A stretch of DNA of 64,000 bases from assembly GCF_004365635.1 (NCBI RefSeq), contig NZ_SOBH01000001.1:1178001-1242000 (forward strand), written 5' to 3'. Positions 35,534 through 64,000 of the stretch are shown one piece after another. Made by a program: the position numbers and the translations under genes. The notes beneath the pieces were generated by a model. That model did no database searches. It had not been told where the DNA came from and was given only the letters and a program-made list of their open reading frames with translations. Source of the DNA: Litoreibacter halocynthiae (GTDB lineage: Bacteria; Pseudomonadota; Alphaproteobacteria; Rhodobacterales; Rhodobacteraceae). Each line of letters begins with the position of its first letter. Within the stretch, counting starts at the first letter, position 1.

Positions 35534-35754
35534 CGTTTTGATGACGCAAACAGGCCGGATTGGCGCAAACAGGACAGAATGACACCCTCCCGAGGCCAAA
35601 GCTGGCTTAAGGAGGATAGGAATGCAGCACCTTGGATGCATTAACGTTCTGGTGGCGCGCACGATTGGCGCCCGCCGAGGCCGTGCCGCACGTGGGCGAC
35701 CAGCGCAGGTTTGACCGCAAACCTTGCCCTGATCTTTGCCCGAAAGCCCCTGAT

Positions 35755-37317
35755 ATGAACGACGAGACCCCAAGCTCTCCCCGCCGCGCCGGAGGCCGCG
35801 CCGCGCGCCGCGCCATGCGGGCCGCCCCCCTTGCCACCGACAAACGCCCCGTACGGGCCGGATTGGAGGGCGGGCAATTGCGCGTCCTGTCCGACATCGA
35901 CATCGCCAATATCCACGAAGCCGCGTTGACGGCATTGGAGGAAATCGGCTTGGCCGATGCACCCGAAAGCGGCGTTGAAATTCTGACGGCTGCAGGGGCA
36001 ATTTTAGGCGACGATGGGCGCATCCGTTTCCCACGCGCTTTGGTCGAGGACATGCTGGCGATAGCCTGCAAGGATATTACCTTGTACGGGCGCGATCCGG
36101 TCAATGATCTGCACCTGAACGGCAAGAAAGTTCATTTCGGCACGGCGGGCGCCGCGGTGCATGTGGTGGACGTCGCAGGGCGTGACTACCGCGAAAGCAC
36201 CGTGCAGGACCTGTTCGACGCCGCTCGCATCGCGGACCGGCTGGACAACATCCACTTTCTGCAACGCCCCATGGTGTGCCGAGACATCTCCGACAATTAC
36301 CAGATGGACCTGAACACCATCTACGCCTGTTGTCGTGGTACGACCAAGCATATCGGCACCTCGTTTACCGAGCCGGACTACGTCGCAGGCGCGTTGGAGA
36401 TGTTGCACATGATCGCGGGCAGCGAAGAGGCGTGGCGGGCGCGGCCCTTCTTGTCGAACTCCAACTGTTTCGTGGTTCCACCGATGAAATTCGCCACCGA
36501 GGCCTGCCGCGTAATGGAGGAATGTATCAACGGCGGGATGCCGGTGCTGTTACTGTCGGCTGGCATGGCAGGCGCAACCGCTCCGCAACCCGTGGCAGGC
36601 GCGATTGTGCAGGCGGTGGCGGAATGTCTGGCTGGCGTGGTCTATGTGAACGCCATCAAGCCGGGCCATCCGGCGGTGTTCGGCACGTGGCCGTTCGGGC
36701 TGGATCTGCGCACAGGGGCGATGTCCGTCGGCTCTGGCGAGCAGGCATTGCTGACGGCGGGCTGCGCGCAGATGCACCACTTCTACGGCATCCCTGGCGG
36801 GGCTGCTGCGGGCGCGTCCGATTCCAAACTGCCGGACATGCAGGCGGGTTGGGAGCAGATGTGCTCCAATGTGATGGCCGGGCTGTCGGGGCTCAACATG
36901 GTGTATGAAGCGGCGGGTATGCATGCCTCGCTGCTGGGGTTTTGCCACGAAAGCCTGATCTTGGGCGATGATCTGATCGGGCAGGCCCTGCGCTGCGTGC
37001 GCGGGATCGAAGTGACCGAGGAGACGCTGGCGCTGGATGTGATGCGCGCCACCTGCTTGGGCGTCGATGGGGCCAAGGGCGTTGGACATTATCTGGGTGC
37101 GGACCAAACGCTGAGCCGGATGGAAACCGACTACGTTTATCCCAGTTTGGGCGACCGGACCTCGCCCAAAGAATGGGCCGAGAAGGACAAACCGGACTTG
37201 TTGGAAAACGCCACAGCGAAGAAGGACGCCATTCTGGCGGAGCGGTCGTTAGCAGAGTTTGATCCGACCGTGGATGCGGCGATCCGGTCGCGGTTCAAGG
37301 TTCATTTGAAGCTCTAA
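35755..37317 (+). CDS. Trimethylamine methyltransferase (MttB) superfamily protein, non-pyrrolysine
   Basis: A 520-residue TIM-barrel methyltransferase of the MttB superfamily (motifs HIGTSFTEPDYVAGALEML, GGAAAGASDSKLPD, MVYEAAGMHASLLGFCHES). The frame runs without an internal TAG, so it does not use pyrrolysine, as in glycine betaine and related quaternary-amine methyltransferases (MtgB, MtpB). These demethylate a quaternary amine onto a corrinoid protein. The ATG at 35755 is chosen from similarity. The N-terminus is Arg/Gly-rich (RRAGGRAARRAMRAAP). It is about 21.6 kb from the MeTr and RACo-like genes that would complete the pathway, and no corrinoid protein gene adjoins it. Confidence 0.85.
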   Translation: MNDETPSSPRRAGGRAARRAMRAAPLATDKRPVRAGLEGGQLRVLSDIDIANIHEAALTALEEIGLADAPESGVEILTAAGAILGDDGRIRFPRALVEDMLAIACKDITLYGRDPVNDLHLNGKKVHFGTAGAAVHVVDVAGRDYRESTVQDLFDAARIADRLDNIHFLQRPMVCRDISDNYQMDLNTIYACCRGTTKHIGTSFTEPDYVAGALEMLHMIAGSEEAWRARPFLSNSNCFVVPPMKFATEACRVMEECINGGMPVLLLSAGMAGATAPQPVAGAIVQAVAECLAGVVYVNAIKPGHPAVFGTWPFGLDLRTGAMSVGSGEQALLTAGCAQMHHFYGIPGGAAAGASDSKLPDMQAGWEQMCSNVMAGLSGLNMVYEAAGMHASLLGFCHESLILGDDLIGQALRCVRGIEVTEETLALDVMRATCLGVDGAKGVGHYLGADQTLSRMETDYVYPSLGDRTSPKEWAEKDKPDLLENATAKKDAILAERSLAEFDPTVDAAIRSRFKVHLKL

Positions 37318-52259: not shown

Positions 52260-52410
52260 CGCCTTTTAGGTGATTCTCTGACCGCCGATATCTAAGCCAC
52301 CCAGTCTTCTCCAAACCCCGAAAATTAGTATCTTCACGGGTGTGAATTTGGTTTCACACCTTATTCACGCCTCCTAATGCATTGTTTTTATTAAATTTAC
52401 CCCCCAGCTC

Positions 52411-52425
52411 TTAACGTAGGGTTAA
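52411..52425. promoter_or_regulatory. CtrA-type box upstream of the eCIS operon
   Basis: TTAA (52411-52414), seven bases, TTAA (52422-52425) followed by C. Identical in layout to the box at the cckA start. It lies 361 bases before the tail sheath ATG and 151 bases after the glk stop. CtrA binding is inferred. Confidence 0.5.
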
Positions 52426-52459
52426 CTTGGGTCTTGCCCGATCTACGGGGAATAACGCA

Positions 52460-52509
52460 GAGTTTTCGTCATAAGCGAAGAGTGAACCGCTTATTTTTAT
52501 GACGTAACT
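52460..52509. repeat. Extended imperfect palindrome, possible glk terminator
   Basis: Nested arms: GAGTT/AACTC outermost, CGTCATAA (52467-52474) with TTATGACG (52497-52504), and ATAAGCG (52471-52477) with CGCTTAT (52488-52494). The last pair is followed by TTTTAT, so in the plus direction it could terminate glk transcription. The alternatives share bases and are mutually exclusive. Confidence 0.5.
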
Positions 52510-52587
52510 CTACTTGCCGCCCGGCCGCACTGCTCTCGACGAGGATTACCCCTTTGCAGGCTGTCGGGCACCGCAAGCTCCGCGTTA

Positions 52588-52675
52588 CGGCACGCTGAGG
52601 TGCCCCCCAGCACCGTCCCAATTCGTGCCGCAGCGTTTGGTCCTCTCGTGTGGTTCTCCCCCGCACCAGAGGACC
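52588..52675 (+). other. Candidate structured RNA in the eCIS leader
   Basis: CGGCACG (52588-52594) pairs with CGTGCCG (52624-52630) and encloses an inner hairpin GGTGC/GCACC (52599-52614). Directly after it, GGTCCTCT (52639-52646) pairs perfectly with AGAGGACC (52668-52675). Three strong stems in 88 bases, ending 95 bases before the sheath ribosome-binding site. It could be a 5'-UTR element or a small RNA on either strand. No known family recognised. Confidence 0.35.
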
Positions 52676-52785
52676 AGCGGGCTTCGCCGTACTGGCAAAC
52701 CAAACTAATGCCTCCTGTTCCGTGCCTGTCGGCTCGGAGCCGGACCAAATCTGCTGACATTCATGCTGCCAAGGAGCCAGAGCCC

Positions 52786-54381
52786 ATGTATCAACACCCC
52801 GGCGTCTACATCGAACACGTCCCCTCAAATGCGTTGGCCATAGAAGCGGCCTCGACCTCTGTCACAGCCTTCATCGGTCATGTGCGGCGCGGTGCGCCCG
52901 TGACCAAATCCGGCGGCACGCCCACCTTCATCACCTCGCCGTCTCAATACACCACGCTGTTCGGGCCCGGTGACGGATCGGCAAGCGGGGTGAAAAACCT
53001 TGCGGCAGACAAAGTGGATTACTTCGGGTTGGCCGTGAACGCCTATTTCGCCAATGGCGGCACCAAGGCCTATATCGTTCCGGTCCAAGGGTCAGGCGGC
53101 ACCAAAGCCTCCGCTCAACTGAAGATATCCGGCGCGACGGACCCGAAATCGGTGGCTGTCACCGCCAAGGACAACGGCACATGGGCCAATGATCTCATGG
53201 TGACGATGTCAAGCGACAAGGACGCCAAGACCTTCTCCATTACCGTTGGCACATGGGCCGCCCAGCCCGACGGAACCAAGAAGCTTGATCAGGTCATCGA
53301 AAGCTTTACCGGCTTCGATTGGGAAGTTGGCGACGGAACCGCCGCCGCAAAACTCAAAGCCGCGACAGATCTGGCAACCGAGACCATCAAGAAGGGCTCT
53401 ACCCTGATTGAGGTCGCCTTCGGTGCGGATGTCGACATGCCCTCTTCCGACAAAGAGGTAAGCGACATCACCGCAAGCGGTGCAGACACTGCAGCCCCCG
53501 CAAAGGCGCAATATACCGAAGCACTGGGACAGCTTGAGGACTACCGCGATGTCTCCATCATCGTGCTGCCCGATGTAAAACCAGATACCGCCGGCAAGGT
53601 CATCTACCAAGAAGCCATCGGCCATTCCGAAAAGATGCAAAACCGGATGGTCATCGTCGATCCGGGCGACGCGGCGATTACCACGCCCAAGGAAGCAAAG
53701 GACGCGGTTTTCACCAACTCGCCCTATGCCGCGCTGTATTACCCGCGCGTCAATATCGGCAACCCGCATTTCGACGCGGAGCTTGCCCCCGACCAACCCC
53801 GCAGCTTCCCCGTTGGCCCTGCTGCCGTGGCCGCTGGCATGTGGGCGCGGATTGATGGCACCCGCGGCGTCTGGAAAGCCCCCGCAGGTCTCGAGGCTGG
53901 TGTGCGTGGCACATTCGGCCCTGAACGGCTGATCGGCAATGGCGTGCAAGACAACCTCAACGAATGGGGCGTGAACTGCCTGCGCTCCATCACCGGCCCG
54001 ACGGTCATCTGGGGCGCGCGCACCACTGCGACGAAGGCCAAACCGCAATACCGTTATATCTCGGTCCGGCGGACGCAAAACATGATCGGCGAAAGTCTCT
54101 ACAATGCCTTGCAGGCCGTGGTGTTCGAGCCGAACGACCACAAGCTTTGGGGCGGATTACGCGCCTCGGTCGGCAATTTCATGGATGGGCTGCACCGCTC
54201 TGGTGCCTTCCAAGGTGAAAAAGCCAGCGACGCGTATTTCGTCAATTGCGGCTTGGGTTCCACCATGACGCAAGGCGACATTGACGCGGGGATCGTGCGG
54301 GTTGCCGTCGGGTTCGCCCCGTTGAAACCCGCCGAGTTTGTCGTTGTCCAGATCAGCCAGAAAGTCGGGCAGACGGCTTAA
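52786..54381 (+). CDS. eCIS contractile tail sheath protein
   Basis: A 531-residue sheath of the phage tail sheath/Afp2-4 family. The N-terminus YQHPGVYIEHVPS followed by STSVTAFIGH is the family opening that forms the inter-subunit linker arm. The C-terminal domain (from about 370) includes GVNCLRSITGPTVIWGARTT and ends in VGFAPLKPAEFVVVQISQ, also conserved. An inserted domain lies at about residues 110-260. AAGGAG lies 9 bases before the ATG. Only one sheath gene is seen, whereas Afp and PVC have three. Confidence 0.93.
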   Translation: MYQHPGVYIEHVPSNALAIEAASTSVTAFIGHVRRGAPVTKSGGTPTFITSPSQYTTLFGPGDGSASGVKNLAADKVDYFGLAVNAYFANGGTKAYIVPVQGSGGTKASAQLKISGATDPKSVAVTAKDNGTWANDLMVTMSSDKDAKTFSITVGTWAAQPDGTKKLDQVIESFTGFDWEVGDGTAAAKLKAATDLATETIKKGSTLIEVAFGADVDMPSSDKEVSDITASGADTAAPAKAQYTEALGQLEDYRDVSIIVLPDVKPDTAGKVIYQEAIGHSEKMQNRMVIVDPGDAAITTPKEAKDAVFTNSPYAALYYPRVNIGNPHFDAELAPDQPRSFPVGPAAVAAGMWARIDGTRGVWKAPAGLEAGVRGTFGPERLIGNGVQDNLNEWGVNCLRSITGPTVIWGARTTATKAKPQYRYISVRRTQNMIGESLYNALQAVVFEPNDHKLWGGLRASVGNFMDGLHRSGAFQGEKASDAYFVNCGLGSTMTQGDIDAGIVRVAVGFAPLKPAEFVVVQISQKVGQTA

Positions 54382-54436
54382 GGCCGCCTGCGTAAACTTT
54401 CAGACCTAAAGCATTTCCGAAAAAGGATTTTATCCA

Positions 54437-54949
54437 ATGCCAGCCCCTATGTTTCCTGCCAATGCCCACCGCTACGACCCTTACCGGACCTTTAAGTTCC
54501 AAGTTGTAATCGGAGGCAAAACCATCGCCGGATTGTCCAAAATGGGCGCCCTGAAAAAGACCACTGAAGTGGTCAACTGGCGCGCCGCCGGTGATCCCAG
54601 CTACCAACGCGCCATGCCCGGCGGCACTAAGTTCGAGAACGTCACGCTGGAGCAAGGCCTCAGCCACGACCCCGCGTTCGAAGAATGGGCCAATTCTGTG
54701 AACAACGTGGCCGATGGTGACGCAGGCATGAGCCTTTTGAACTTCCGCCGTGATGTGGTAATCAATGTGCTGAATCTGCAAGGCACACCGGCCATTTCCT
54801 ATGTGCTTCGTCGGGCCTTCGTGACCGAATACCAAGCCCTCCCTGAACTGGACTCAAACAGTATGAATGCTGTTGGAATTCAGTCGGTTACCCTCGCCTA
54901 TGAAGGTTTCACCCGTGACGCCGCTGTGGCCGAGCCCGCAGAGTCGTAA
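54437..54949 (+). CDS. eCIS inner tube protein (gp19-like)
   Basis: A 170-residue tail tube protein of the phage T4 gp19/Afp1-5 family: FKFQVVIGGKTIAGLSKMGAL near the start, then ALKKTTEVVNWRAAGDPS and KFENVTLEQGLSHDPAFEEW, the typical signature. It stacks in hexamers inside the sheath. AAGGA precedes the ATG. It lies 55 bases after the sheath gene, and its TAA overlaps the next ATG (TAATG). Confidence 0.93.
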   Translation: MPAPMFPANAHRYDPYRTFKFQVVIGGKTIAGLSKMGALKKTTEVVNWRAAGDPSYQRAMPGGTKFENVTLEQGLSHDPAFEEWANSVNNVADGDAGMSLLNFRRDVVINVLNLQGTPAISYVLRRAFVTEYQALPELDSNSMNAVGIQSVTLAYEGFTRDAAVAEPAES

Positions 54950-55737
54950 TGCCCGACCGCGCCCCAATTACCCTTGCCGTTGGTTTTCCAACTGCAACCC
55001 CCCGTGCCTTGACGGGGCGGGTCGAGCTTGCTTTGACCAACGCCTTGCGCCTGCCGACCCGTCCCGAGCAGGTGAGCGGCGTTTTGGGCGCGGTCTTTAC
55101 AACCATCGGCGGCCTGCCAGTAACCAGTGACCTAGTCGACCGTCTGGCCACCGGTGCCCGTGCGTGGTGTCTCATCCGCGCCGCACTCTCCTTCCTGCCG
55201 GGCATGCGCTGGTTTCAGGCCAGCTGCACGTCCTGCGGGGAGGCTTATGATCTGTCCGTCTCACTGGCCGACACCCCGCGCTCGGATATCCCGTCCGCGT
55301 TTCCGGTTGTTGAAGTCGACACCTCGCTTGGATCGTGCCGCTTCGAGGTACCGAACGGATCAACCGAGCGGGCCTTGGCCTGCGCAAAGGGCTCCGACGC
55401 CCCCCGCGTTCTGGCGGCATCCTGTGGACTGGGGCCTGATGCGGTTGCCCAAGCCGATCAATTCACCGCGTCCGATCTGGCATTGATCGACGCCCAGCTG
55501 GACGCCGCAACACCGGATATCCCTGACACGCTCACCACCCTTTGCCCCACCTGCGAGGCCGAAACCACGGCCCGAATTGACCCGCTCAGCTTCGCCTTCC
55601 CCGATGCGACCACGGTGCTGCGCCATGTCCATTCCTTGGCTTCCGCGTATCACTGGAGCGAGGATGCGATCCTCGACCTGCCCACTGGCCAACGCCAAGC
55701 ATACGCCAGTCTGATAGCGGAAGGGACACGCCGATGA
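54949..55737 (+). CDS. T4 gp26/gp51-like baseplate-associated protein with two CxxC pairs
   Basis: A 262-residue protein. The C-terminal helical part HSLASAYHWSEDAILDLPTGQRQ resembles the T4 baseplate hub chaperone/gp26-51 family that precedes assembly genes in contractile systems. Two CxxC pairs (C93/C96 and C199/C202) flank acidic beta-rich sequence and probably bind zinc. It overlaps the tube gene by one base and the repeat protein by ATGA. Role in assembly is inferred from position. Confidence 0.65.
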   Translation: MPDRAPITLAVGFPTATPRALTGRVELALTNALRLPTRPEQVSGVLGAVFTTIGGLPVTSDLVDRLATGARAWCLIRAALSFLPGMRWFQASCTSCGEAYDLSVSLADTPRSDIPSAFPVVEVDTSLGSCRFEVPNGSTERALACAKGSDAPRVLAASCGLGPDAVAQADQFTASDLALIDAQLDAATPDIPDTLTTLCPTCEAETTARIDPLSFAFPDATTVLRHVHSLASAYHWSEDAILDLPTGQRQAYASLIAEGTRR

Positions 55738-56675
55738 GCCTGTTGAGCCGCCTTTTGCCCCGTGCAGGGCATAACACCACTGCGTTGGCCCAGCCCAAAG
55801 GCATCGCCCGTCAACAAGAGCCTGCCGGATTGATGCATTCCATAAGCAGGATGGACGACGAAGAGGTGCAACCGCTGCGGCGTATCGAGGAAGACGACGA
55901 GGCCAGCCCGTTGCGCCGCATTCCAAGCGCCCCTTTGCAGCGGGCGGAGGAAGAGGACCCCGCGCAGCCTTTGCACCGTACGGAGGACGAGGGTATGCAG
56001 CCGCCGCACCGCGCGCCGGAGGACGAGGCGCAAGCCCTGCATCGCACAGTCGAAGATGAAGCCCAGCCCCTGCATCGCCTTGAGGAGGAAGAGGCTGCCC
56101 AACCTCTGCACCGCGCGGAGGCCTTTGACGAAGCACAACCGCTGCACCTAACGCAGGATGAAGAGGTGCAACGGCTGCACCGCGCGGAGGAAGACGACGC
56201 GCTACACCTTCGCCGCATGGAGGAAGAAGAGGCACAGCCACTCGCCCGCTTGTCGCCACCGGATGACCAGCAGCTTTCGGCGCAGAACGGCCCGAAACCC
56301 GCCGCGCTTTCCAGCATGGATGACCAGCCACCCGGGATGACCTTGCGCCGAGAGCAGGCAGCGAGCGCACCGATGGCCCCGTCCGCCGCGACACCGGTCG
56401 CACCGCCCATGACCGAAGCCGGCCCCTTGCCGCAAACCGAGCCGACCCCCGCGCAGTTTGATCAGGTCGAGCCAAACTTCACAGAGCCGGACCCGCAGCC
56501 CCCTGCTCGATTTGACCCGCCACAACAGTCGCCGCTCGCAGCCGAAGGCCCCGCCAAGGTGGTCATTGATCAGGTCGACGTGGTCATCCACGAACCTGCC
56601 CGCGCATCAGCGCCCGCAGCCCTCGTGGCGGACCTCTCCGCGATGGCGCGCCGCCGTTACCTAGGGGGGGTCTGA
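55734..56675 (+). CDS. eCIS-associated acidic repeat protein
   Basis: A 313-residue protein with three zones. Residues 41-175 hold twelve imperfect PLHR-x-EED units, spaced 11 or 12 residues except for one 8-residue step (starting at 47, 59, 67, 79, 90, 101, 112, 124, 136, 147, 158, 169). Residues 180-270 are Pro/Gln/Ala-rich. Residues 275-287 form a beta strand (VVIDQVDVVIHEP) followed by a helix ending RRRYLGG, a C-terminal type often seen in the gene just before DUF4255 in contractile systems. The repeat resembles the acidic PLQR-EEEE linkers of DUF4157 eCIS cargo proteins. Function unknown; tether, scaffold or cargo adaptor are all possible. Confidence 0.75.
   Translation: MSLLSRLLPRAGHNTTALAQPKGIARQQEPAGLMHSISRMDDEEVQPLRRIEEDDEASPLRRIPSAPLQRAEEEDPAQPLHRTEDEGMQPPHRAPEDEAQALHRTVEDEAQPLHRLEEEEAAQPLHRAEAFDEAQPLHLTQDEEVQRLHRAEEDDALHLRRMEEEEAQPLARLSPPDDQQLSAQNGPKPAALSSMDDQPPGMTLRREQAASAPMAPSAATPVAPPMTEAGPLPQTEPTPAQFDQVEPNFTEPDPQPPARFDPPQQSPLAAEGPAKVVIDQVDVVIHEPARASAPAALVADLSAMARRRYLGGV
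55854..56258 (+). repeat. Tandem hendecad-like coding repeat
   Basis: About twelve degenerate units of 33-36 bases encoding Pro-Leu-His-Arg followed by acidic residues. Arg/His at fixed positions and leucine every 11 or 12 residues are conserved more than the DNA. The tract is a natural site for slippage or unequal recombination. Confidence 0.8.
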
Positions 56676-56676
56676 G

Positions 56677-57636
56677 ATGGCGATTGATGCAAGCTCCCTC
56701 TCCGTCGCCATGCAGGGCTTCGCAGACCATTTGGCGGCGAATTTCACGCAGGATGTGACCGTCACTGTCGAAAACCCGAGCGCCGCCGCGGAGCAAGCCA
56801 AGGGATCCGATAAAGCCGTCCTCAACGTCTTTTGCTACCGGATTTCACCGTCGGGCATACACCCCGATCTGTCGCCGAACGAGCCGACCTTCATCCGTGC
56901 CCATGTGCTGCTGACCGCCTTCTCCAATGCCACCGATGCGGCGATCAAGGACAAGGATTTGCGGGTGCTCGGCCACGCCGTCCGCGTGCTGCAATCGCAA
57001 CCGGTGATCCCGACTATCCTACCCGGTGGTGTTCCGGCACCAGAAGTCAGCCAGTACCGCCTTCAAGCCGTGCTGCAAGCCACCGAGATGGAGGAGATGA
57101 ACCATATCTGGTCCATCCAAGGCAGCGAAATGTCTTACCGTTTATCAGTAGCTTACGAGCTGGCCTTAATCCCCGTCGAGCCACTAACATATCTGCCGCC
57201 ACCAGCCCCCGTGGAAAGCGTGGTTCTGGATCTGGGCGCGGACGCCCTACCCGACGCTGAAATCGGCGCGACCCCCATTGCCATCACCGCACCGGATGCG
57301 CCTGTGAACTGGCTGCCGTTCTCGATGATCCGGTCGGGCGACGCGTTGAGCTCCGATGTCACCGTTCCCGATGGCGCGGCGCAGGTGCAACTCGCCATCG
57401 CCGGCCCTAAGGGAGAGGCCGTCCAAGTCACCGTGGCATGGACCCGCGCCGATGGAACCCCCCAGTCGCAAGCGGCCCAAGCTGCGAGCGTTACGGCGAC
57501 GGCCCTCGATCTGGACACACCGACCGCAGCAATAACGCTCGACAGCGCGGCCAGCGGCGACGTGGCAACGCTTATCGTGCGGCCCGACGGGACCGACATG
57601 CCCGCAGGCAACACAGTCCGGGTGGTGGTGACATGA
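56677..57636 (+). CDS. DUF4255 (Pvc16/Afp16-like) tail terminator/cap protein
   Basis: A 319-residue protein. The N-terminal 200 residues match the DUF4255 family: SVAMQGFADHLAANF, LNVFCYRISPSG, RAHVLLTAFSNA, YRLQAVLQATEMEEMNHIW, and SYRLSVAYELALIPVEP. In Afp and PVC this protein caps the distal end and sets sheath-tube length. Residues 200-319 are an extra beta-rich domain of unknown role, probably immunoglobulin-like. DUF4255 next to an AAA+ ATPase is the best single marker of eCIS. It overlaps the ATPase ATG (ATGA). Confidence 0.9.
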   Translation: MAIDASSLSVAMQGFADHLAANFTQDVTVTVENPSAAAEQAKGSDKAVLNVFCYRISPSGIHPDLSPNEPTFIRAHVLLTAFSNATDAAIKDKDLRVLGHAVRVLQSQPVIPTILPGGVPAPEVSQYRLQAVLQATEMEEMNHIWSIQGSEMSYRLSVAYELALIPVEPLTYLPPPAPVESVVLDLGADALPDAEIGATPIAITAPDAPVNWLPFSMIRSGDALSSDVTVPDGAAQVQLAIAGPKGEAVQVTVAWTRADGTPQSQAAQAASVTATALDLDTPTAAITLDSAASGDVATLIVRPDGTDMPAGNTVRVVVT

Positions 57637-59018
57637 ATATCGAAGCCCCCACCCCCACAACCGCCGAATTGCTGTCCTCGGCTATGGATCTGGAATGGGC
57701 ACGGCTGCATGACATGCTGTCACTGGCCGAAGCCATGCGCACGGGTGCCGCCCTTGATAACGACTTCGCAAACCGTTTTGCCGCGCTCTCCGCCAGTGTT
57801 TCCGAAACCCGCGCGGCGGGCAGCTGGCAAAGGTTAAGCGCGATGATTTCCGGCGATGTGCTGGAGCAACTGACACCGCAGGACCTTGACCTGATGGCGC
57901 TTGCTCTGGCCCCTGTAGCCCGCCCCGCTTTCGCCCCGCGCATCCAGTCCTTGCAGCCCCAGCTTGGCACGCCATGGCCCGGCTTGGCCTTTGTCCAAGA
58001 GCTGCTGATGCTGGAAACCAGCGTCGAGATCGCCGCGTTGATCGCCCGCCTCACCCCCACATCGCCTTTGGTGGCATCCGGACTGCTCAAGATCGAAGGC
58101 ACGACACCGTCCCAAACCCTGCGCCCCGGCCCCGTTTTGATCCGCATAATGCTGGATCGCGACCCTGAACTGTCGCCCCCACCCGGCGCATCGCTTTCGA
58201 CTTTACGCGGAACATGGGATCAGCTGGTGTTGCCCGCCCCGACATTACGCCAACTCCGCGAGTTCGGCGCATGGGTGGAGCACCGCCACGCCATGACCCG
58301 CGATTGGGGCGCACGCGCTGTGCATGGACCGCTCGCGCTGTTCTCGGGTGCGTCCGGTACTGGCAAAAGTTTCGCGGCGACCGTTCTGGCCACTGAATTG
58401 GGCGAACGCACGGGCGAACCTTGGGCGCTCTACAGCCTCGATCTGGGGCGTATCATGTCGAAATATGTCGGTGAGACGGAAAAGAACCTCAACGCGCTGT
58501 TGGACAGCCTTGAAGGACGCAACGCCATCCTGCAAATCGACGAGGCGGACGGGCTTTTGGGCAAGCGCGGCGAAGTCAGCGACGCTCGCGACCGTTACGC
58601 TAACCTTGAGGTCAGCCACATGCTGGCGCGGTTCGAGCGGCATTCCGGCCCCGTGATCCTGACCACAAACCTGCGGGCCAATGTGGATCCCGCCTTCCTG
58701 CGCCGCTTCCAACTGGTCGTTGATTTTCCCACGCCCGATGACGTTGCGCGCGCTGCCTTGTGGAAGGTGCTTCTGCCTCCCAAAGCGCCGCTTGCAAAGC
58801 GGGTCGAGCTGGAGACACTCGGTGCGGCGGTGCGCTTGTCCGGCGGCTCCATCGCCAATGCGGCGACCTATGCCGCCGTGTTGGCCTATGCCGACGATGG
58901 CACCATTGACCTGCCGCATATCGCCCGCGCCATCTGGGCCGAGCTGACCAAAGACACGCGTCAGGTGCGTCCGTCAGAAATCGGATATCTTGCTGAATTT
59001 CTGGAGGCTACGCAATGA
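57633..59018 (+). CDS. eCIS AAA+ ATPase (Afp15/Pvc15-like)
   Basis: A 461-residue AAA+ protein. An N-terminal helical domain (about 1-190) precedes the ATPase: Walker A GASGTGKS (239-246), pore-loop region SKYVGETEKN, Walker B ILQIDEAD (299-306), sensor 1 TTN (344-346) and arginine-finger RRF (357-359). Afp15 relatives are needed for particle assembly or maturation, unlike ClpV, which recycles T6SS sheath. Coupled to the genes on both sides. Confidence 0.92.
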   Translation: MNIEAPTPTTAELLSSAMDLEWARLHDMLSLAEAMRTGAALDNDFANRFAALSASVSETRAAGSWQRLSAMISGDVLEQLTPQDLDLMALALAPVARPAFAPRIQSLQPQLGTPWPGLAFVQELLMLETSVEIAALIARLTPTSPLVASGLLKIEGTTPSQTLRPGPVLIRIMLDRDPELSPPPGASLSTLRGTWDQLVLPAPTLRQLREFGAWVEHRHAMTRDWGARAVHGPLALFSGASGTGKSFAATVLATELGERTGEPWALYSLDLGRIMSKYVGETEKNLNALLDSLEGRNAILQIDEADGLLGKRGEVSDARDRYANLEVSHMLARFERHSGPVILTTNLRANVDPAFLRRFQLVVDFPTPDDVARAALWKVLLPPKAPLAKRVELETLGAAVRLSGGSIANAATYAAVLAYADDGTIDLPHIARAIWAELTKDTRQVRPSEIGYLAEFLEATQ

Positions 59019-59227
59019 AGCTAAAGCGCCTTACCGTGAAACTGCCCGCCTCCATGGCCGCGACCGCCTCCCATGACGCCCGCGCCATTGCCGAAGCCGT
59101 GGGCCAAGCCTTGGCCAAGGGCGCGCAGCCCAATGGCCCGATCACCATCCAAAGCCACGGGCAAAATGGCGCGGTTCTGGCCGGTCAGGTCAGCTCCGGT
59201 TTGAAAGGCGGGCGCAATGGCGGTTGA
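59015..59227 (+). CDS. Small eCIS-operon protein
   Basis: A 70-residue protein, basic at the start (KLKRLTVKLPASM), with a helix DARAIAEAVGQALAKGA and a Gly-rich end. It is coupled to the ATPase by ATGA and overlaps the next gene by 11 bases, so it is clearly part of the operon. It matches no family I can name. Similar short ORFs sit at this place in other eCIS loci. Confidence 0.6.
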   Translation: MKLKRLTVKLPASMAATASHDARAIAEAVGQALAKGAQPNGPITIQSHGQNGAVLAGQVSSGLKGGRNGG

Positions 59228-59846
59228 GACCAAAGGCATGTTGTTCGAATACGGGCTGACGATCCCGCCGCTGGCGCTGATCTTCAAGTTCAACCCGCAA
59301 GAAATCAGCCGTTCGCGCACAGTAACCGTGAAGACCGGCGACGCCCCCGGCTCTCGCGGCGGCTATGACTTCCTGTCGCCGCTGGAAACCTCCCGCGTCG
59401 CGCAAGGCGTTGAAATGCAGGCTGAAAGCTTCTCTGTCACCATCCTGCTGGACGCCACCGACGCGCTGAATGACGGGGACGCAATCGCCAAGACCTTTGG
59501 CGTGCAGCCGCAGATCGACACGCTGCGCTCCATGGCGGAGCCGAAGGCGCAAGGCCCCGGTGGCGTGAAAGTGCTGGCCTCGCTCGGCCTGTCCGGCGCG
59601 CGGGCGTTCGAGCGGGATGAAACCGCCTCCGTGCTGGTCTTCGCGTGGGGGATGCAGTTGCTTCCGGTGTTCCTGACCGGCGTGACCCAGAAAGAGACGA
59701 TGCACCTGCCCAACCTGATGCCCTACCGCGCCGAAATGGGGCTGACGATGCAGGTCATCGAAAGTGCCAACCCGTTCTTCCTTGCCGACAAAGTGCGCCA
59801 GACCATCGGCACAGGACTGAACCTCGTATCCGGATTGGGGGCCTAG
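59217..59846 (+). CDS. CIS tube-initiation protein (Afp7 N-terminal-like)
   Basis: A 209-residue protein with the fold of the contractile injection system tube-protein domain found at the N-terminus of Afp7/Pvc7: LIFKFNPQEISRSRTVTVK, then FSVTILLDATDALND and VLVFAWGMQLLPVFLTGVTQKE. It connects the hub to the inner tube. The LysM part that is usually fused to this domain is encoded separately in the next gene, which begins 4 bases downstream. Confidence 0.82.
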   Translation: MAVETKGMLFEYGLTIPPLALIFKFNPQEISRSRTVTVKTGDAPGSRGGYDFLSPLETSRVAQGVEMQAESFSVTILLDATDALNDGDAIAKTFGVQPQIDTLRSMAEPKAQGPGGVKVLASLGLSGARAFERDETASVLVFAWGMQLLPVFLTGVTQKETMHLPNLMPYRAEMGLTMQVIESANPFFLADKVRQTIGTGLNLVSGLGA

Positions 59847-59850
59847 CGCG

Positions 59851-60186
59851 ATGGTATTTTTCAAAGGTAGTTATTACGAAACCACCGCCCTGTTCGAGCC
59901 ACCCGAAGACGGCACCCGAGGCTTTCGCGGCGTCCGAGGGCGCGCAATCGCGAACCCCGAAGCGGTGCTGGAGCATAGCGTCGCCGTGGGCGATCGTCTC
60001 GACCAAATGGCGCAAAATTACTACGCAAATCCTAGGGATTGGCGACGGATGGCAGATTGCAACGCCGAAGTGATGTTCCCTGAGGATATGGTCTACGGGC
60101 CGGATGGCCACCCCGACAAGCCCGAAGTCGCCGCCGAGAAAATCGGCACCACGCAGCTTGTCCCGCGTCGGCGGGAGGTGCGCTGA
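59851..60186 (+). CDS. LysM-like tail protein (gpX/Afp7 C-terminal-like)
   Basis: A 111-residue protein with a LysM-type core at about residues 42-85 (SVAVGDRLDQMAQNYYANPRDW... and TTQLVPR at the end). It matches small tail protein X/gp53-like LysM proteins of contractile tails. It lies between the tube-initiation protein and the hub gene, and its TGA overlaps the next ATG by one base. Confidence 0.78.
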   Translation: MVFFKGSYYETTALFEPPEDGTRGFRGVRGRAIANPEAVLEHSVAVGDRLDQMAQNYYANPRDWRRMADCNAEVMFPEDMVYGPDGHPDKPEVAAEKIGTTQLVPRRREVR

Positions 60187-61355
60187 TGGGCTTACTCGAT
60201 CAACTCCTTGACCCCGGTTTCCGGCAGGCCGCATCGGTGGAAATATTGGTCGGCTCTGCCAAGACGGATATCGGCTCGCTCGCCGCTCTGGTCTCCTCTA
60301 TCGAGGTCCGCGCCGCGCGCATGGAAGCAACCAGTGCGACGATCACAATCGACGACCGCCGCGACACCAATGGCGACTACATGGCCGCCGATGCGGGGCT
60401 GTTTGCGCGGTGGGAAACCATCGTCATCAACGCTGATTTCCAGACTCATATCGACGAAGTGTTTCGCGGCTACATCATGGAATTGAAGCCCAGCTACCCG
60501 CAAAATGGCGGCGAGGCGAAGCTGGTGATCGAATGTCTGGATGACAGCGCCGCCCTGTCGCGCGAACATCAACGCAAGGTCTGGGGCGACGAGACCGCCC
60601 CCATGACCGACCGCGCGATTGTGGAAGAGTTAATCAAACCCCTGCCCTTGAAGCTTCTCGACGGGCCGGACGGGGCAAGCGCCCGCGCGCTTACGCAGGA
60701 TTCCACCCCGATTGCCTTGCTGCAAGACCGCGCCAAGGCCAACGGGTTCGAGATGATCTTCGAGCGGGGCGAGGTCTATTTCGGCCCCAAACGGCTGGAG
60801 GCAGACCCGCAAGCGCCAATCATGGTCTATGCGGGCAGCGCCACGAATTGCCTGAACTTCGCCGTCTCGGACGAGGCCAACAAACCCGACGTCGTGGCGT
60901 GGGAGAAAGCCCCTGCGACCGACGGCGCAGAGGCTGTCACCGGCGAGGCCTTTGCCGACCTGCCTTTGCTGGGCAAGTACCCCGCCGCATCTGAAGGTGC
61001 GGGGCTGGGAACCCCCGCCATCGCCCGCATCAAAGGCGAAGGCGACGAGACCGAGGACGAGATCGAAGCCCGCGCCCAAGGCATGGTCAACGAGGCCAGC
61101 TTTCGCATCAAAGCAAATGGAGAGCTGGACGGCACGCTGTACGGCCATGTCCTGCGGGTCGGCGGCACGGTGACCGTCGACGGCGTCGGCGCGCGCAATG
61201 GCGGTGTTTATTACGTGGACACGGTCACCCACCAGTTCTCCCCCGACGGCTACCGCCAGCAGTTCCAACTGATCCGCAACGCTGTGGGTGAGACCGAAGC
61301 CGTGGGCGCGGCACCGCTATCACCCATCCTCTCTGCCATCCAAAACCTGTTCTGA
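60186..61355 (+). CDS. Late control protein D / gp27-like hub (Afp8 N-terminal-like)
   Basis: A 389-residue protein of the phage gpD/VgrG hub class: an N-terminal beta domain (EILVGSAKTDIGSLAALVSSIEV), a central barrel and a C-terminal region with DGTLYGHVLRVGGTVTVDGVG and FSPDGYRQQF, the conserved ending. Forms the trimeric hub above the spike. In Afp8 it is fused to gp5; here the gp5-like spike is a separate next gene. Confidence 0.88.
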   Translation: MGLLDQLLDPGFRQAASVEILVGSAKTDIGSLAALVSSIEVRAARMEATSATITIDDRRDTNGDYMAADAGLFARWETIVINADFQTHIDEVFRGYIMELKPSYPQNGGEAKLVIECLDDSAALSREHQRKVWGDETAPMTDRAIVEELIKPLPLKLLDGPDGASARALTQDSTPIALLQDRAKANGFEMIFERGEVYFGPKRLEADPQAPIMVYAGSATNCLNFAVSDEANKPDVVAWEKAPATDGAEAVTGEAFADLPLLGKYPAASEGAGLGTPAIARIKGEGDETEDEIEARAQGMVNEASFRIKANGELDGTLYGHVLRVGGTVTVDGVGARNGGVYYVDTVTHQFSPDGYRQQFQLIRNAVGETEAVGAAPLSPILSAIQNLF

Positions 61356-61365
61356 GGAGGCCACA

Positions 61366-62190
61366 ATGTCCGAAATATTCCAAGCCCTCGAGAGCACGAT
61401 CCGCAAGCAACAGCGCAGCTATTTCGGCAAATACCGCGCCTTCGTAGCCGATGTGGAGGACCCCGACCTACGCGGCCGCTGCAAGCTGGTGATCCCGTCT
61501 GTTTTGGGCACCGAGACCTCGGACTGGGCCTTGCCCGTTGTCCCTTATGGTGGCGGCGAAGGCTTCGGCATGCTCGCCGTGCCGCCTGTGGGATCGCAGG
61601 TCGTGGCGGAGTTTTTGGAAGGCGACGCCGCCAGCCCGATGTGGACAGGCACGTTCTGGCGCACGGGCGGCGAAGTGCCCGAGGAATATTCCGACCAAGC
61701 GGTGAAGCTGATCAAGACCGAAAGCGGTCATGTGCTGTCGCTCGACGACACTGACGGCACCGAGGTGTTAACTCTGAAATCCGCCGCCGATGCCTCGATG
61801 GTATTGGATCAGGACGGCTCCATGATCCTGACCGATGCGGCGGGTGCGACGGTGACGCTGGACGCCGCAGGCGGTGAGTTGACGGTGGCCGATGGCAACG
61901 GGAACGAGTTGGTCATGACCTCCTCAGGCATCACCTGCACGGATGCGAATGGCAATGAAATCAGCATGTCAGGTGGCGGTGTTGAAGTAAAATCCTCCGC
62001 CACAGTGAATATTGAGGGGTCCATGGTGACTGTGGCCGGATCAGGCGGCGAGCCGTTGATCAAGGGCTCCACATTCCTGTCGCTGTTCAACGCGCACACC
62101 CACAACGCGACCTCCATTGGCGCACCGACCTCGCCGCCGCTGGTGCCGCTCACCCCGTCCGTTTTAACCACGAAAAGCACGGCCAGCTGA
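61366..62190 (+). CDS. gpV/gp5-like spike baseplate protein (OB domain and beta-helix)
   Basis: A 274-residue protein. An OB-fold domain (about 15-110; DLRGRCKLVIPSVLG, GGGEGFGMLAVPPVGSQVVAEF) is followed by a repetitive beta-helix (residues 130-240, with GSMILTDAAGATVTLDAAG-type repeats) and ends in NAHTHNATSIGAPTSPP, the usual end of gpV spikes. It tips the tube. GAGGAGG lies 5 bases before the ATG at 61366. Confidence 0.9.
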   Translation: MSEIFQALESTIRKQQRSYFGKYRAFVADVEDPDLRGRCKLVIPSVLGTETSDWALPVVPYGGGEGFGMLAVPPVGSQVVAEFLEGDAASPMWTGTFWRTGGEVPEEYSDQAVKLIKTESGHVLSLDDTDGTEVLTLKSAADASMVLDQDGSMILTDAAGATVTLDAAGGELTVADGNGNELVMTSSGITCTDANGNEISMSGGGVEVKSSATVNIEGSMVTVAGSGGEPLIKGSTFLSLFNAHTHNATSIGAPTSPPLVPLTPSVLTTKSTAS

Positions 62191-62588
62191 TGTCACAATA
62201 CGAAAGCACCCTGCCGCGTGTCGGCTACATGGCCTTCCCCTTCCGCATGACGGAAAACGGGGCCGCACAGGTCGCACGGTTCGACCATATCCGCCAGCAG
62301 GTGGAGCAGGTTCTGTTCACCTCGCCCGGCGAGCGGGTGTTCCGCCCCGAATACGGCTTCGGCGCGCGCCAGCATGTGTTCGAACCGAACGCCGTGGGCT
62401 TGTGGGAACTGGCCCAAAACCGTCTTTACGGCGCGTTGTCGGAAGCGCTGGCCGGAGAGGTCGATCCGAAAACCATCCGCGTCGATATCGGAGCGCCACC
62501 GGACCAGCCCGAGGTGTTGATGGTCCAGATCAGTTACACCATCGCGGCGCTTGCCCGCGAAGAAACCCATAGATTTGAGGTGACGTGA
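62190..62588 (+). CDS. GPW/gp25-like baseplate protein
   Basis: A 132-residue protein of the gp25/GpW family: GAAQVARFDHIRQQVEQVLFTSPGERVFRPEYGFG is the conserved opening, with the ERVFRPEYG motif. It seeds sheath assembly at the baseplate. The ATG shares one base with the spike gene stop (TGATG) and its own stop overlaps the next ATG likewise. Confidence 0.94.
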   Translation: MSQYESTLPRVGYMAFPFRMTENGAAQVARFDHIRQQVEQVLFTSPGERVFRPEYGFGARQHVFEPNAVGLWELAQNRLYGALSEALAGEVDPKTIRVDIGAPPDQPEVLMVQISYTIAALAREETHRFEVT

Positions 62589-63796
62589 TGGCGGACCTTG
62601 CCGCAGCCAAACTGGTTTTCGACGGGACTTGCCCCGATTGCGGAACCCGCGAACAGGTGTTGCCGCTGCCCATTCCCGGTGTCGAGGACGATTTCGACTG
62701 GAAGGTGCGCGACTATGACAGCTTCCGGCTGTTCTTGATGCAGGAACTGGCCTCGCGCTACCCCGACCGTCGCCGTTGGACGCCAGCGGATATGGAGGTG
62801 GTGCTGGTCGAATTGCTTTCCGCCGCGCTGGACCGTGCCTCCCACGCGCTGGATCGTGTGCAGGCGGAACGGTTCTTGGACACCGCCCGCCGCCCCGGCT
62901 CCGTGCGCAGGCTGCTGGCGATGATCGGCTGGCAGGCTGATGATGCCGACATTGCGAAAGCGCGGCTTATGTACCGCCCGCTCGGGGCTGAACCCACGGA
63001 TGAGCAAGCGTTAGAACAATACTGGCAGCGCGTCCCTTCAGCGATGGAGCAAGCCCGCAAAGACGGCCCCAGCCAGATCGCAGCACAACACCGGATGGTC
63101 ACCTTGAACGACCACAGCGCGACCGTGCAAGGCCACCCGCTGGTGGCACTGGCGCAGGCGCGGCTGGTGTGGTCGGGGGCGTGGAACTCGATTCTGATCG
63201 CCACTTTGCTGGAGGATGATCTGCCGATGGATGCGCCCTTGCATGACGGGGACGTTGATGCACCCCGCCCCAACCGCCTGCGTGCGGAGCTTTGGGAGCA
63301 GATCGTTGCATTCCACTCCAACCGCAATCTGGCGCTGCCACCTATCGGGCCAAAACTCACGGGTCGTGCCATCCTGCGGGTGCTGGTCGACGCCTACCGG
63401 ATGATTGGCTCCGAGGTGTTCTTGGAACCCGCCCGCGCAGCGCCGATCAACGTCACCCTGTCCGTGCGTGCAAAACCCGGCTTCTTCCGCTCCGAATTGC
63501 GCCAAGCGGTTGCCGAAGTCTTCACCTCCGACCAGGGCGGTTTCTTCGAGCCGGGTCGCTTGGGGTTTGGCGAGGCGCTTTATGCCTCCGACATCATCGA
63601 GGCCGCGATGCAGATCGAAGGCGTGGCCGTGGCGTGCCTGAACCGCTTCCGCCGTGTCGGGCGCAGCTTCGAGGATCGCAGCGCCGAAGGCTTCATCATC
63701 GTCGACCCAGACACCTATGTGCTGTGTGCCGGTGACGCGCATGCCCCAGAACGCGGTGCGTTCCGCATCACCGTCCAAGGGGGGGAAACCGGATGA
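62588..63796 (+). CDS. Baseplate assembly protein (gpJ/Afp11-like)
   Basis: A 402-residue baseplate wedge protein. It begins with a CxxC pair (CPDCGTRE), then KVRDYDSFRLFLMQELASRYPDRRRWTPADMEVVLVELLSAALDRASHALDRVQAERFLDTARRPGSVRRLLAMIGW, a region strongly conserved in eCIS gpJ-like proteins. The C-terminus RITVQGGETG is encoded over a G7 tract. ATG at 62588 is preferred to GTG at 62585 because it forms TGATG with the gp25 stop. Confidence 0.85.
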   Translation: MADLAAAKLVFDGTCPDCGTREQVLPLPIPGVEDDFDWKVRDYDSFRLFLMQELASRYPDRRRWTPADMEVVLVELLSAALDRASHALDRVQAERFLDTARRPGSVRRLLAMIGWQADDADIAKARLMYRPLGAEPTDEQALEQYWQRVPSAMEQARKDGPSQIAAQHRMVTLNDHSATVQGHPLVALAQARLVWSGAWNSILIATLLEDDLPMDAPLHDGDVDAPRPNRLRAELWEQIVAFHSNRNLALPPIGPKLTGRAILRVLVDAYRMIGSEVFLEPARAAPINVTLSVRAKPGFFRSELRQAVAEVFTSDQGGFFEPGRLGFGEALYASDIIEAAMQIEGVAVACLNRFRRVGRSFEDRSAEGFIIVDPDTYVLCAGDAHAPERGAFRITVQGGETG

Positions 63797-64000
63797 GCCA
63801 CCTGATGCCCACCGACCTGACCCGCTGGAACCGTGCAGGCATGAGCCGGTTCGACTATGTCGACGGCGACGCCGCCATCTGGCTGGAACGCCTGCGCGAG
63901 ATTTTGACGGGGCTTTACGCCAAAGGCGTTCCGGTCGAGATGCGCCAGCCCGAGGCCTTGCGCGACCTGTTTCTGACCGAAACCTCCGATCTGGAGCGCG
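63793..64000 (+). CDS. Second baseplate component, N-terminal fragment cut by the window end
   Basis: An open frame with ATGA overlap to the preceding baseplate gene and no stop before 64000 (69 codons visible). It begins LTRWNRAGMSRFDYVDGDAAIWLERLREIL, resembling the start of gpJ/Afp12-type wedge proteins that follow Afp11. The assignment is by position and this opening only. Confidence 0.6.
   Translation, partial: MSHLMPTDLTRWNRAGMSRFDYVDGDAAIWLERLREILTGLYAKGVPVEMRQPEALRDLFLTETSDLER

Follow-up and report, generated by a model that had tools for sequence, protein, structure and literature searches.

The contractile injection systems (CIS) closest to the one considered here are known from Streptomyces, where they are described as cytoplasmic (PMC10066040, in excerpt), and from haloarchaea, where they are described as membrane-bound (PMC11566945, in excerpt); neither kind is presented in these excerpts as a free extracellular particle. 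A further group of CIS, which carries the tme gene, is spread over distant phyla, Proteobacteria included, according to the excerpted text of PMC11126660. Here we describe a CIS gene cluster of Litoreibacter halocynthiae, which starts at position 52786 of a 64,000-nucleotide stretch (the window; contig NZ_SOBH01000001.1, positions 1,178,001 to 1,242,000) and runs past its right edge. We read the cluster as a complete-looking, chromosomal CIS of the extracellular class (eCIS) that is maintained by selection, with a conserved gene order, a fibre-type gene and a DUF4157 cargo protein, and we give this reading a probability of roughly 0.77. Judged by its sequence, the cluster is a further member of the already known eCIS class and not a new kind of machine; we place it within a known kind because the spread of tme-bearing CIS over phyla has already been described.

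Between 52786 and 64000 the window holds 14 open reading frames (ORFs) for CIS proteins, all on the + strand and mostly overlapping (9 of 13 junctions up to the window edge). Six more + strand genes follow, for a total of 20 (g1 to g20) ending near 80763, where coordinates beyond 64000 are contig positions minus 1178000. The initial annotation had recognized the 14 coupled CIS genes and had expected the operon to continue off the right edge, and both statements are borne out, the first by the ORFs, the Pfam domains and the recurring gene order; its description of the layout as minimal is contradicted by the 20 genes. Pfam matches over the curated cut-offs comprise Phage_sheath_1/1C, Phage_T4_gp19, Pvc16_N (DUF4255), AAA, CIS_tube, Phage_base_V, GPW_gp25, DUF6519, eCIS_core/DUF4157 and Patatin. 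PHROGs and NCBIfam contribute a baseplate hub, a weak wedge match in a 111-aa protein, and two TIGR02243-related wedge proteins.

There is one sheath gene (g1, 52786-54381, 531 aa; Phage_sheath_1 5.1e-10, Phage_sheath_1C 1.2e-8) and one inner tube gene (g2, 54437-54949, 170 aa; Phage_T4_gp19 1.2e-36), as had been noted before. The cap or terminator of tube and sheath (g5, 56677-57636, 319 aa; DUF4255/Pvc16_N 1.9e-19) is followed by an AAA ATPase (g6, 57633-59018, 461 aa; AAA 1.4e-19, with WHD at 8.8e-4, below cut-off), a conserved small protein (g7, 59015-59227, 70 aa; an ORF whose counterparts were found in 12 of the 14 other clusters), a CIS_tube protein (g8, 59217-59846, 209 aa; CIS_tube 4.3e-7) and a probable baseplate protein (g9, 59851-60186, 111 aa; phrog_7145 baseplate wedge, weak at 7e-4). 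The spike is split over separate genes, as the initial annotation had proposed: a gpD/VgrG-like hub (g10, 60186-61355, 389 aa; phrog_196 baseplate hub 5.7e-9, VgrG_rel 3.7e-4, below cut-off), which had no match among solved structures at 0.01, and an OB-fold protein (g11, 61366-62190, 274 aa; Phage_base_V 1.9e-17). Then come the gp25 baseplate wedge (g12, 62190-62588, 132 aa; GPW_gp25 8.8e-14) and two further wedge proteins, the second of which crosses the window edge (g13, 62585-63796, 403 aa, TIGR02243 1.1e-16, below the family cut-off; g14, 63793-66795, 1000 aa, TIGR02243 4.6e-23, below cut-off, phrog_6 3.2e-13). By position we take g6 to be of the Afp15/Pvc15 type, g8 to be the Afp7-like N-terminal part, g9 to be the LysM/gp53-like C-terminal part of Afp7, and g10 and g11 to be the first and second halves of Afp8; these equivalences are presumed from the Afp gene order.

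The eCIStem catalogue, as excerpted, asks for at least 10 core genes close together (PMC8213781). Here we found tube, sheath, CIS_tube, gpD hub, OB spike, gp25, two wedges, DUF4255 and AAA genes together with DUF4157, as assigned by domain-family matches and not by that study's own profiles. The Afp16/Pvc16_N DUF4255 match lies over its cut-off, the catalogue's exclusion of phage, R-pyocin and type VI secretion system (T6SS) loci leaves the cluster in, and a fibre feature is present in the DUF6519 (eBAP5) match of g16, whose anchoring role is predicted. The rival interpretation of the locus as a contractile-tail prophage, either defective or a satellite (tailocin), draws on the homology of the tail parts to phage parts and on the fold of g3, which resembles T4-type hub assembly proteins. 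DUF4255, AAA and DUF4157 are, however, eCIS markers, and neither capsid, portal, terminase or integrase families nor a T6SS membrane-complex family turned up in the operon proteins scanned or in 9 flanking proteins. Immediately downstream of the window, where portal, capsid and terminase genes had been named as the finding that would make this a prophage, there are instead baseplate, fibre-type and cargo-type genes and then ordinary metabolism. Phage records gave 33 sheath matches, all below 60% identity and one covering 80% or more of the query, and viral contigs gave two sheath relatives at 33-35% and 0 confirmed tube relatives. With the entire gene set under purifying selection, we consider the tailocin scarcely credible and the tailed-prophage reading largely refuted. 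The earlier assignment to the eCIS class rather than to a prophage or T6SS, including its observation that capsid, terminase and integrase genes are missing, thus stands by sequence criteria.

The arrangement recurs well beyond this genome. A scan of genome contigs yielded 26 loci, and 14 of these clusters were read fully beside that of the window, for 15 in all. Allowing for detection gaps, their order is sheath, tube, g3, g4, DUF4255, AAA, g7, CIS_tube, g9, hub, OB, gp25, wedge, wedge, g15, DUF6519, DUF4157, so that the layout, earlier called divergent, is the normal one for its own lineage. Because this order recurs in 14 other clusters and the DUF4255 family matched in 0 of 14 control genomes, the cluster is beyond chance. 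The sheath shares 99% identity with its counterpart in L. ascidiaceicola DSM 100566 and 91% with the one in L. meonggei; across the 14 other clusters identity is 66-100% for the tube and 43-100% for the CIS_tube protein. The lineage is mostly alphaproteobacterial, with relatives in Halomonas, Zixiibacteriota and SAR324, the last being the most divergent and having two sheath genes where the other 14 clusters have one. Named isolates with the cluster belong to Litoreibacter, Shimia, Sedimentitalea, Mesobacterium and Kordiimonas. Seven more scan loci (Myxococcota, Deltaproteobacteria, Proteobacteria and one Streptomyces; 34-37%) had almost no other cluster genes within 10 kb. Among 394 sampled genomes of the family, a related DUF4255 gene is present in 6, and in 4 of these, the window's included, at 43% or more.

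All 20 genes are under purifying selection. Whole-gene dN/dS against four relatives (Nei-Gojobori) was 0-0.315, although the ratios are rough in many comparisons because dS exceeds 1 there and synonymous sites are near saturation. In the comparison with L. meonggei, dS lies at about 1.0-1.3 for the genes sheath through DUF4255 and at 0.22-0.57 for AAA through wedge 2; g15 has 0.68, g16 1.10, g17 0.57, and g18-g20 have about 1.0-1.2. The low-dS block relative to this species (locus L070) extends from 57633 to about 66795, and it is likely a baseplate block that has recombined between species.

The genes past the window edge include a fibre-type and a cargo-type gene, both of which the initial annotation had expected downstream. 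The fibre-type gene, g16 (68436-71822), is directly preceded by g15 (66788-68422) and matches DUF6519 at 4.1e-6 (26.1 bits, cut-off 22.4). DUF6519 appears as "eBAP5", a fibre domain for baseplate anchoring, in a 2026 catalogue of receptor-binding domains, whose excerpts also state that eBAP3/5 systems use Tail_P2_I adaptors (PMC12923769). Compared with L. meonggei, g16 identity in successive blocks of 100 columns is 89, 78, 87, 85, 83, 58, 53, 67, 61, 40, 22 and 23%, whereas g15 stays at 80-95% and g17 at 75-99%; dN/dS of g16 in 200-codon blocks is 0.23, 0.07, 0.17, 0.30, 0.36 and 0.71. Such a profile, with a stable start and a diverging C-terminus, suggests the pattern expected of a fibre anchor and tip. 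A comparison of g16 with solved structures gave nothing meaningful.

The cargo-type gene, g17 (71838-75734), encodes 1298 aa and matches eCIS_core at 9.3e-24. As in Tme-type effectors, it is the largest ORF of its cluster, with an N-terminal DUF4157 domain (about residues 180-252, with an HELTH motif) and a hydrophobic centre, strongest at 583-601 and 637-655; these two stretches have matching places in 13 of the 15 clusters, with only one in Halomonas and two, placed elsewhere, in SAR324. Its relatives measure 1263-1355 aa in all 15 clusters, and in each of them it follows the baseplate and fibre-type genes; the Tme-type position directly upstream of the baseplate genes was seen in none. The C-terminal third carries the motif [F/Y]E.DH.I.K twice, a repeat found by profile-profile comparison (E 1.1e-6, probability 91%) and not by plain BLAST between its two halves. 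The C-terminus is the least conserved part of the protein; the blastp match reaches it in 14 of 15 clusters, with SAR324 aligning around DUF4157 only, and it is therefore kept within the lineage. No match to g17 was found among solved structures. In 11 of the 12 clusters outside Litoreibacter, one or two extra small DUF4157 genes lie immediately 5' of g17; the three Litoreibacter clusters have none there, and SAR324 has one ahead of the sheath.

The centre of g17 (about aa 275-697) also occurs elsewhere, with matches in 36 plasmid records, none of which covers 80% of the query. Among the 15 matches listed, at 28-44% identity, three are annotated as DUF4157 proteins and one as a DddA-like deaminase toxin, the remainder being hypothetical or unannotated. 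The record with the deaminase toxin has no annotated CIS gene within 6 kb. At four plasmid loci compared with the window's CIS proteins over the same distance, two had no match to any other of them, one had an AAA match, and one had a sheath match of 75 aa located inside the same gene. Because the same domain occurs in plasmid proteins without CIS neighbours, the centre is better read as a putative delivery module of DUF4157 proteins.

This bears on how the tube length is set, since the initial annotation had placed a tape measure downstream: no such gene was found, and a separate tape measure gene was seen in none of the 15 clusters. The best candidate is g17 itself, which might act both as tape measure and as cargo, in the manner of Tme of S. 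davawensis, a protein described in the excerpts of PMC11126660 as a DUF4157 tapemeasure-related effector. The near-constant length of g17 and the lack of any other tape measure gene speak for such a double role, as do PHROG tape-measure matches (1e-3 or better, best 1.7e-11) in 3 of the 10 natural g17 proteins that were scanned out of the 15. The window's own g17, however, had no such match, and one of two reversed g17 centres also matched tape-measure families (1.8e-6), so that the signal is partly compositional and the PHROG-based identification, having failed this control, is weakened. In addition, the central domain is present in proteins without CIS neighbours, and a fixed set of domains may be all that the constant length reflects. 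We therefore consider the double role unlikely. Excerpts of the published accounts describe the typical Afp14 tape measure as absent in the S. coelicolor CIS (PMC10066040) and no plug or tape measure homologue in the haloarchaeal CIS (PMC11566945).

Several observations weigh against a complete extracellular machine. A Pfam scan of 19 of the 20 proteins, with g17 covered through an L. ascidiaceicola relative of 96% identity, detected neither a PAAR tip nor a plug nor any typical tape measure family, and no lysis family turned up among the family matches. The DUF6519 match of g16 spans only 45 of 593 profile positions; Tail_P2_I is below cut-off in 2 of 5 relatives of g15, and the window's own g15 has no match. 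The C-terminal third of g17 is without a Pfam match (two relatives scanned, at 0.1), and its effector activity remains putative for this reason. Finally, the closest sheaths belong to systems described as not extracellular. Among solved structures g1 scores highest against haloarchaeal 9ezm (2.2e-57, with its best stretch at 240-528); the S. coelicolor CIS structures (8bky, 2.9e-56; 8bl4) align over the full length, residues 2-525 of 531. Chains of Pvc, Afp, All3325 and other eCIS-type sheaths align only from residue 297-341 onward. The earlier statement that the locus fits Afp/PVC/MAC thus does not hold for the sheath, and the label "extracellular" is only putative, because the nearest sheaths come from non-extracellular CIS.

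These sheath matches favour the alternative that the machine remains inside the cytoplasm or attaches to the membrane of its own producer, its action being on that producer or through contact. The Streptomyces and haloarchaeal systems likewise lack a typical Afp14, and the two strongly hydrophobic stretches of the cargo count on the same side. On the other hand, a DUF6519 gene with a diversifying C-terminus resembles target recognition, and no producer-membrane anchor was identified in the family scans, the only search made for one. We regard this alternative as possible, with the odds against it, and because a fibre-type gene is present we lean towards particles that are released from the cell rather than cytoplasmic or membrane-bound. 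We propose that the AAA ATPase would load the DUF4157 cargo into the tube, that g16 would anchor at the baseplate through DUF6519 and touch the target with its fast-changing C-terminus, and that contraction would push the tube with its cargo across the membrane of the target. The central hydrophobic domain of the cargo may then aid entry into or across the membrane, and its conserved C-terminal third may perform the effector work.

Two genes between tube and cap deserve separate comment. The product of g3 (54949-55737, 262 aa) has two Cys pairs (C93, C96, C199, C202) that are invariant in 20 of 20 members compared. T4_baseplate matches 2 of these members (best 6e-5) and DUF6760 weakly matches 6 (best 0.016), with neither found in the window's own protein. 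Its AF2 model (pLDDT 91.9) matched "Baseplate hub assembly protein, bacteriophage T4-like" in the Foldseek viral library (3.3e-12, TM 0.65), among 46 viral matches to T4-like baseplate hub proteins at 0.001 or better, and this predicted fold suggests a zinc-Cys baseplate hub assembly protein like T4 gp26. The charged-repeat protein g4 (55734-56675, 313 aa) has a conserved N end, acidic repeats of the type AEEDEAQPLHR, and a conserved C end (V.I.Q.DV ... RYLGGV); in a 17-row alignment, which omits L021, L022 and L036 for their unclear or missing ends, the repeat length varies and both ends are kept. By blastp g4 was undetected in 3 of 15 clusters, and g7 in 2; g4 was later recognized in three clusters, those of Woodsholea and SAR324 through its conserved ends and that of Pseudoroseomonas through a profile. 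The idea that the g4 repeats are an in-trans copy of N-terminal repeats of DUF4157 cargo was unsupported: a loose form of the motif occurred in 2 of 37 distinct DUF4157 proteins from the relatives, several of the 37 ending prematurely at locus borders (two copies in the SAR324 protein and one in that of Shimia R10_1). Across a broader group of loci, L099-L147, a search with another motif revealed no consistent pattern.

The operon lies in the chromosome of a 3.68 Mb genome assembled in 9 contigs. On its left side it is bordered by genes for a GH1 glycosidase and glucokinase; the right side has genes for a FAD-binding protein, an AlkZ-like protein, a class II aldolase, a TIM-barrel isomerase-like protein, a MmgE/PrpD protein, an IclR regulator and a class V aminotransferase. 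A promoter scan upstream of the sheath gene returned 0 sigma-70-type sites. Just ahead of that gene and 3' of glucokinase there is a conserved intergenic element (52330-52700, core 52430-52690), a candidate small RNA, which is kept in 7 genomes of the genus, 3 of them without CIS, and in 1 of the 394 family genomes, the window's own. In its predicted hairpins 15 of 89 pairs keep pairing with both sides changed; the covariation term is small (-0.31), other pairs break, and no Rfam family matched at gathering score.

Within the genus, 7 of 21 genomes have the window-type sheath at 76% or more, 3 have a distant sheath type only (41-44%, C-terminal part), and 11 have no sheath match. This second, distant CIS-type sheath (39-44%, C-terminal part) was seen in genomes G806, G807, G809, G811 and G816, with both types in G807 and G816. 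We inspected the site between glucokinase and the FAD-binding gene in 12 genomes, including 5 of the 11 without a sheath match. Six carry the CIS and a three-gene cassette of patatin (g18, 75759-76925; Pfam Patatin), metallopeptidase-like protein (g19, 76922-79135) and MBL-fold protein (g20, 79132-80763): the window's genome, L. ascidiaceicola, L. meonggei, G802, G804 and a Paracoccaceae metagenome-assembled genome (MAG). One (G816) has the CIS with peptidase and MBL gene only, two have the cassette alone and no CIS gene (G171, at L154, and G800, at L170), and three have neither (G799, G810 and G813).

The cassette might be the injected effector set of the cluster: it lies directly 3' of g17 on the same strand, and in Mesobacterium, the Paracoccaceae MAG and G816 a peptidase/MBL pair likewise follows g17. 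The peptidase occurs in 4 of 394 family genomes, and a CIS (DUF4255 at 43% or more) is present in 2 of these 4 versus 2 of the 390 others (Fisher p 0.0005; 0.023 excluding the window's genome). Yet 2 of the 4 lack the window-type CIS, among them G082, in which no gene matched DUF4255 at 1e-10. In G171 and G800 the cassette persists at the same site with no CIS gene present; 10 of the 15 clusters lack it, and Pfam shows no DUF4157 in g18-g20. A defence scan of these three proteins matched the MBL-fold protein only (LmuA 2.1e-15, RTasMBL 1.1e-6, PDC-M48B 2.8e-6, Avs1a 0.0015), matches that we read as a generic MBL likeness. An effector role for the cassette is thus doubtful, and we infer that it is an accessory outside the machine. 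A bolder combined proposal would have one fixed-length protein of about 1300 aa replace the tape measure and serve as payload, with g4 as a dedicated lumen scaffold or loading factor and the site filled, emptied or stripped to a stand-alone cassette among species of the genus; we hold it to be rather improbable.

Elsewhere in the window, an Rfam PYLIS_3 match (36814-36913, + strand; 40.6 bits, cut-off 38) sits inside the ORF 35632-37317, a methyltransferase-like frame of 561 aa that continues across the match without a stop codon; the match probably reflects likeness to mttB genes and not pyrrolysine use.

Characterized CIS stem from few branches, and the Litoreibacter branch is compact, chromosomal and present in several named isolates. 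The literature searched gave no bench study of this branch and no link between Litoreibacter and contractile injection; catalogue supplements, which lay outside that search, may list the cluster. One genus includes natural strains that have the machine, strains that lack it and strains that keep only the accessory cassette, and these ready-made comparisons could address length setting without a classical tape measure, the target of the DUF6519 fibre and the action of the DUF4157 cargo.

Compared with known systems, the cluster shares with Afp, PVC, MAC and AlgoCIS (clades Ia and Ib) the core of sheath, tube, DUF4255 cap, AAA, gp25 and spike, and like AlgoCIS, which has two DUF4157 cargo proteins, it has a cargo-type DUF4157 protein; it differs from them in its single sheath gene, its split Afp7 and Afp8, the added g4, and the lack of a detected Afp14 or PAAR protein. 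With CISSc of S. coelicolor it shares sheath similarity over residues 2-525, a single sheath and the absence of a typical Afp14. The excerpted description of CISSc gives two tube genes and no conventional fibre (PMC10066040), whereas Litoreibacter has one tube gene and a DUF6519 gene, and, unlike CISSc, it carries the g4 repeat protein and a DUF4157 protein of about 1300 aa. The CIS/T6SS of Halogeometricum borinquense provides the best sheath match and likewise has DUF4157 proteins and no plug or tape measure homologue in the excerpted account; it is membrane-bound with genes in two subclusters (PMC11566945), whereas the Litoreibacter system is bacterial and encoded in one operon. In S. lividans, too, a DUF4157 protein is paired with a CIS and the effector has a remote tape-measure link, with DUF4157 (Sle2) and effector (Sle1) separate, as excerpted from PMC13277306, whereas g17 joins DUF4157, hydrophobic centre and C-terminus in one protein. 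In build, g17 parallels Tme of S. davawensis, also large, with an N-terminal DUF4157, hydrophobic segments and a C-terminal effector part, which in g17 is putative; by the excerpted description Tme has 2247 aa, ends in an EndA-like nuclease and is encoded upstream of the baseplate genes (PMC11126660), whereas g17 has 1298 aa, follows the fibre-type gene and appears to differ in its C-terminal third.

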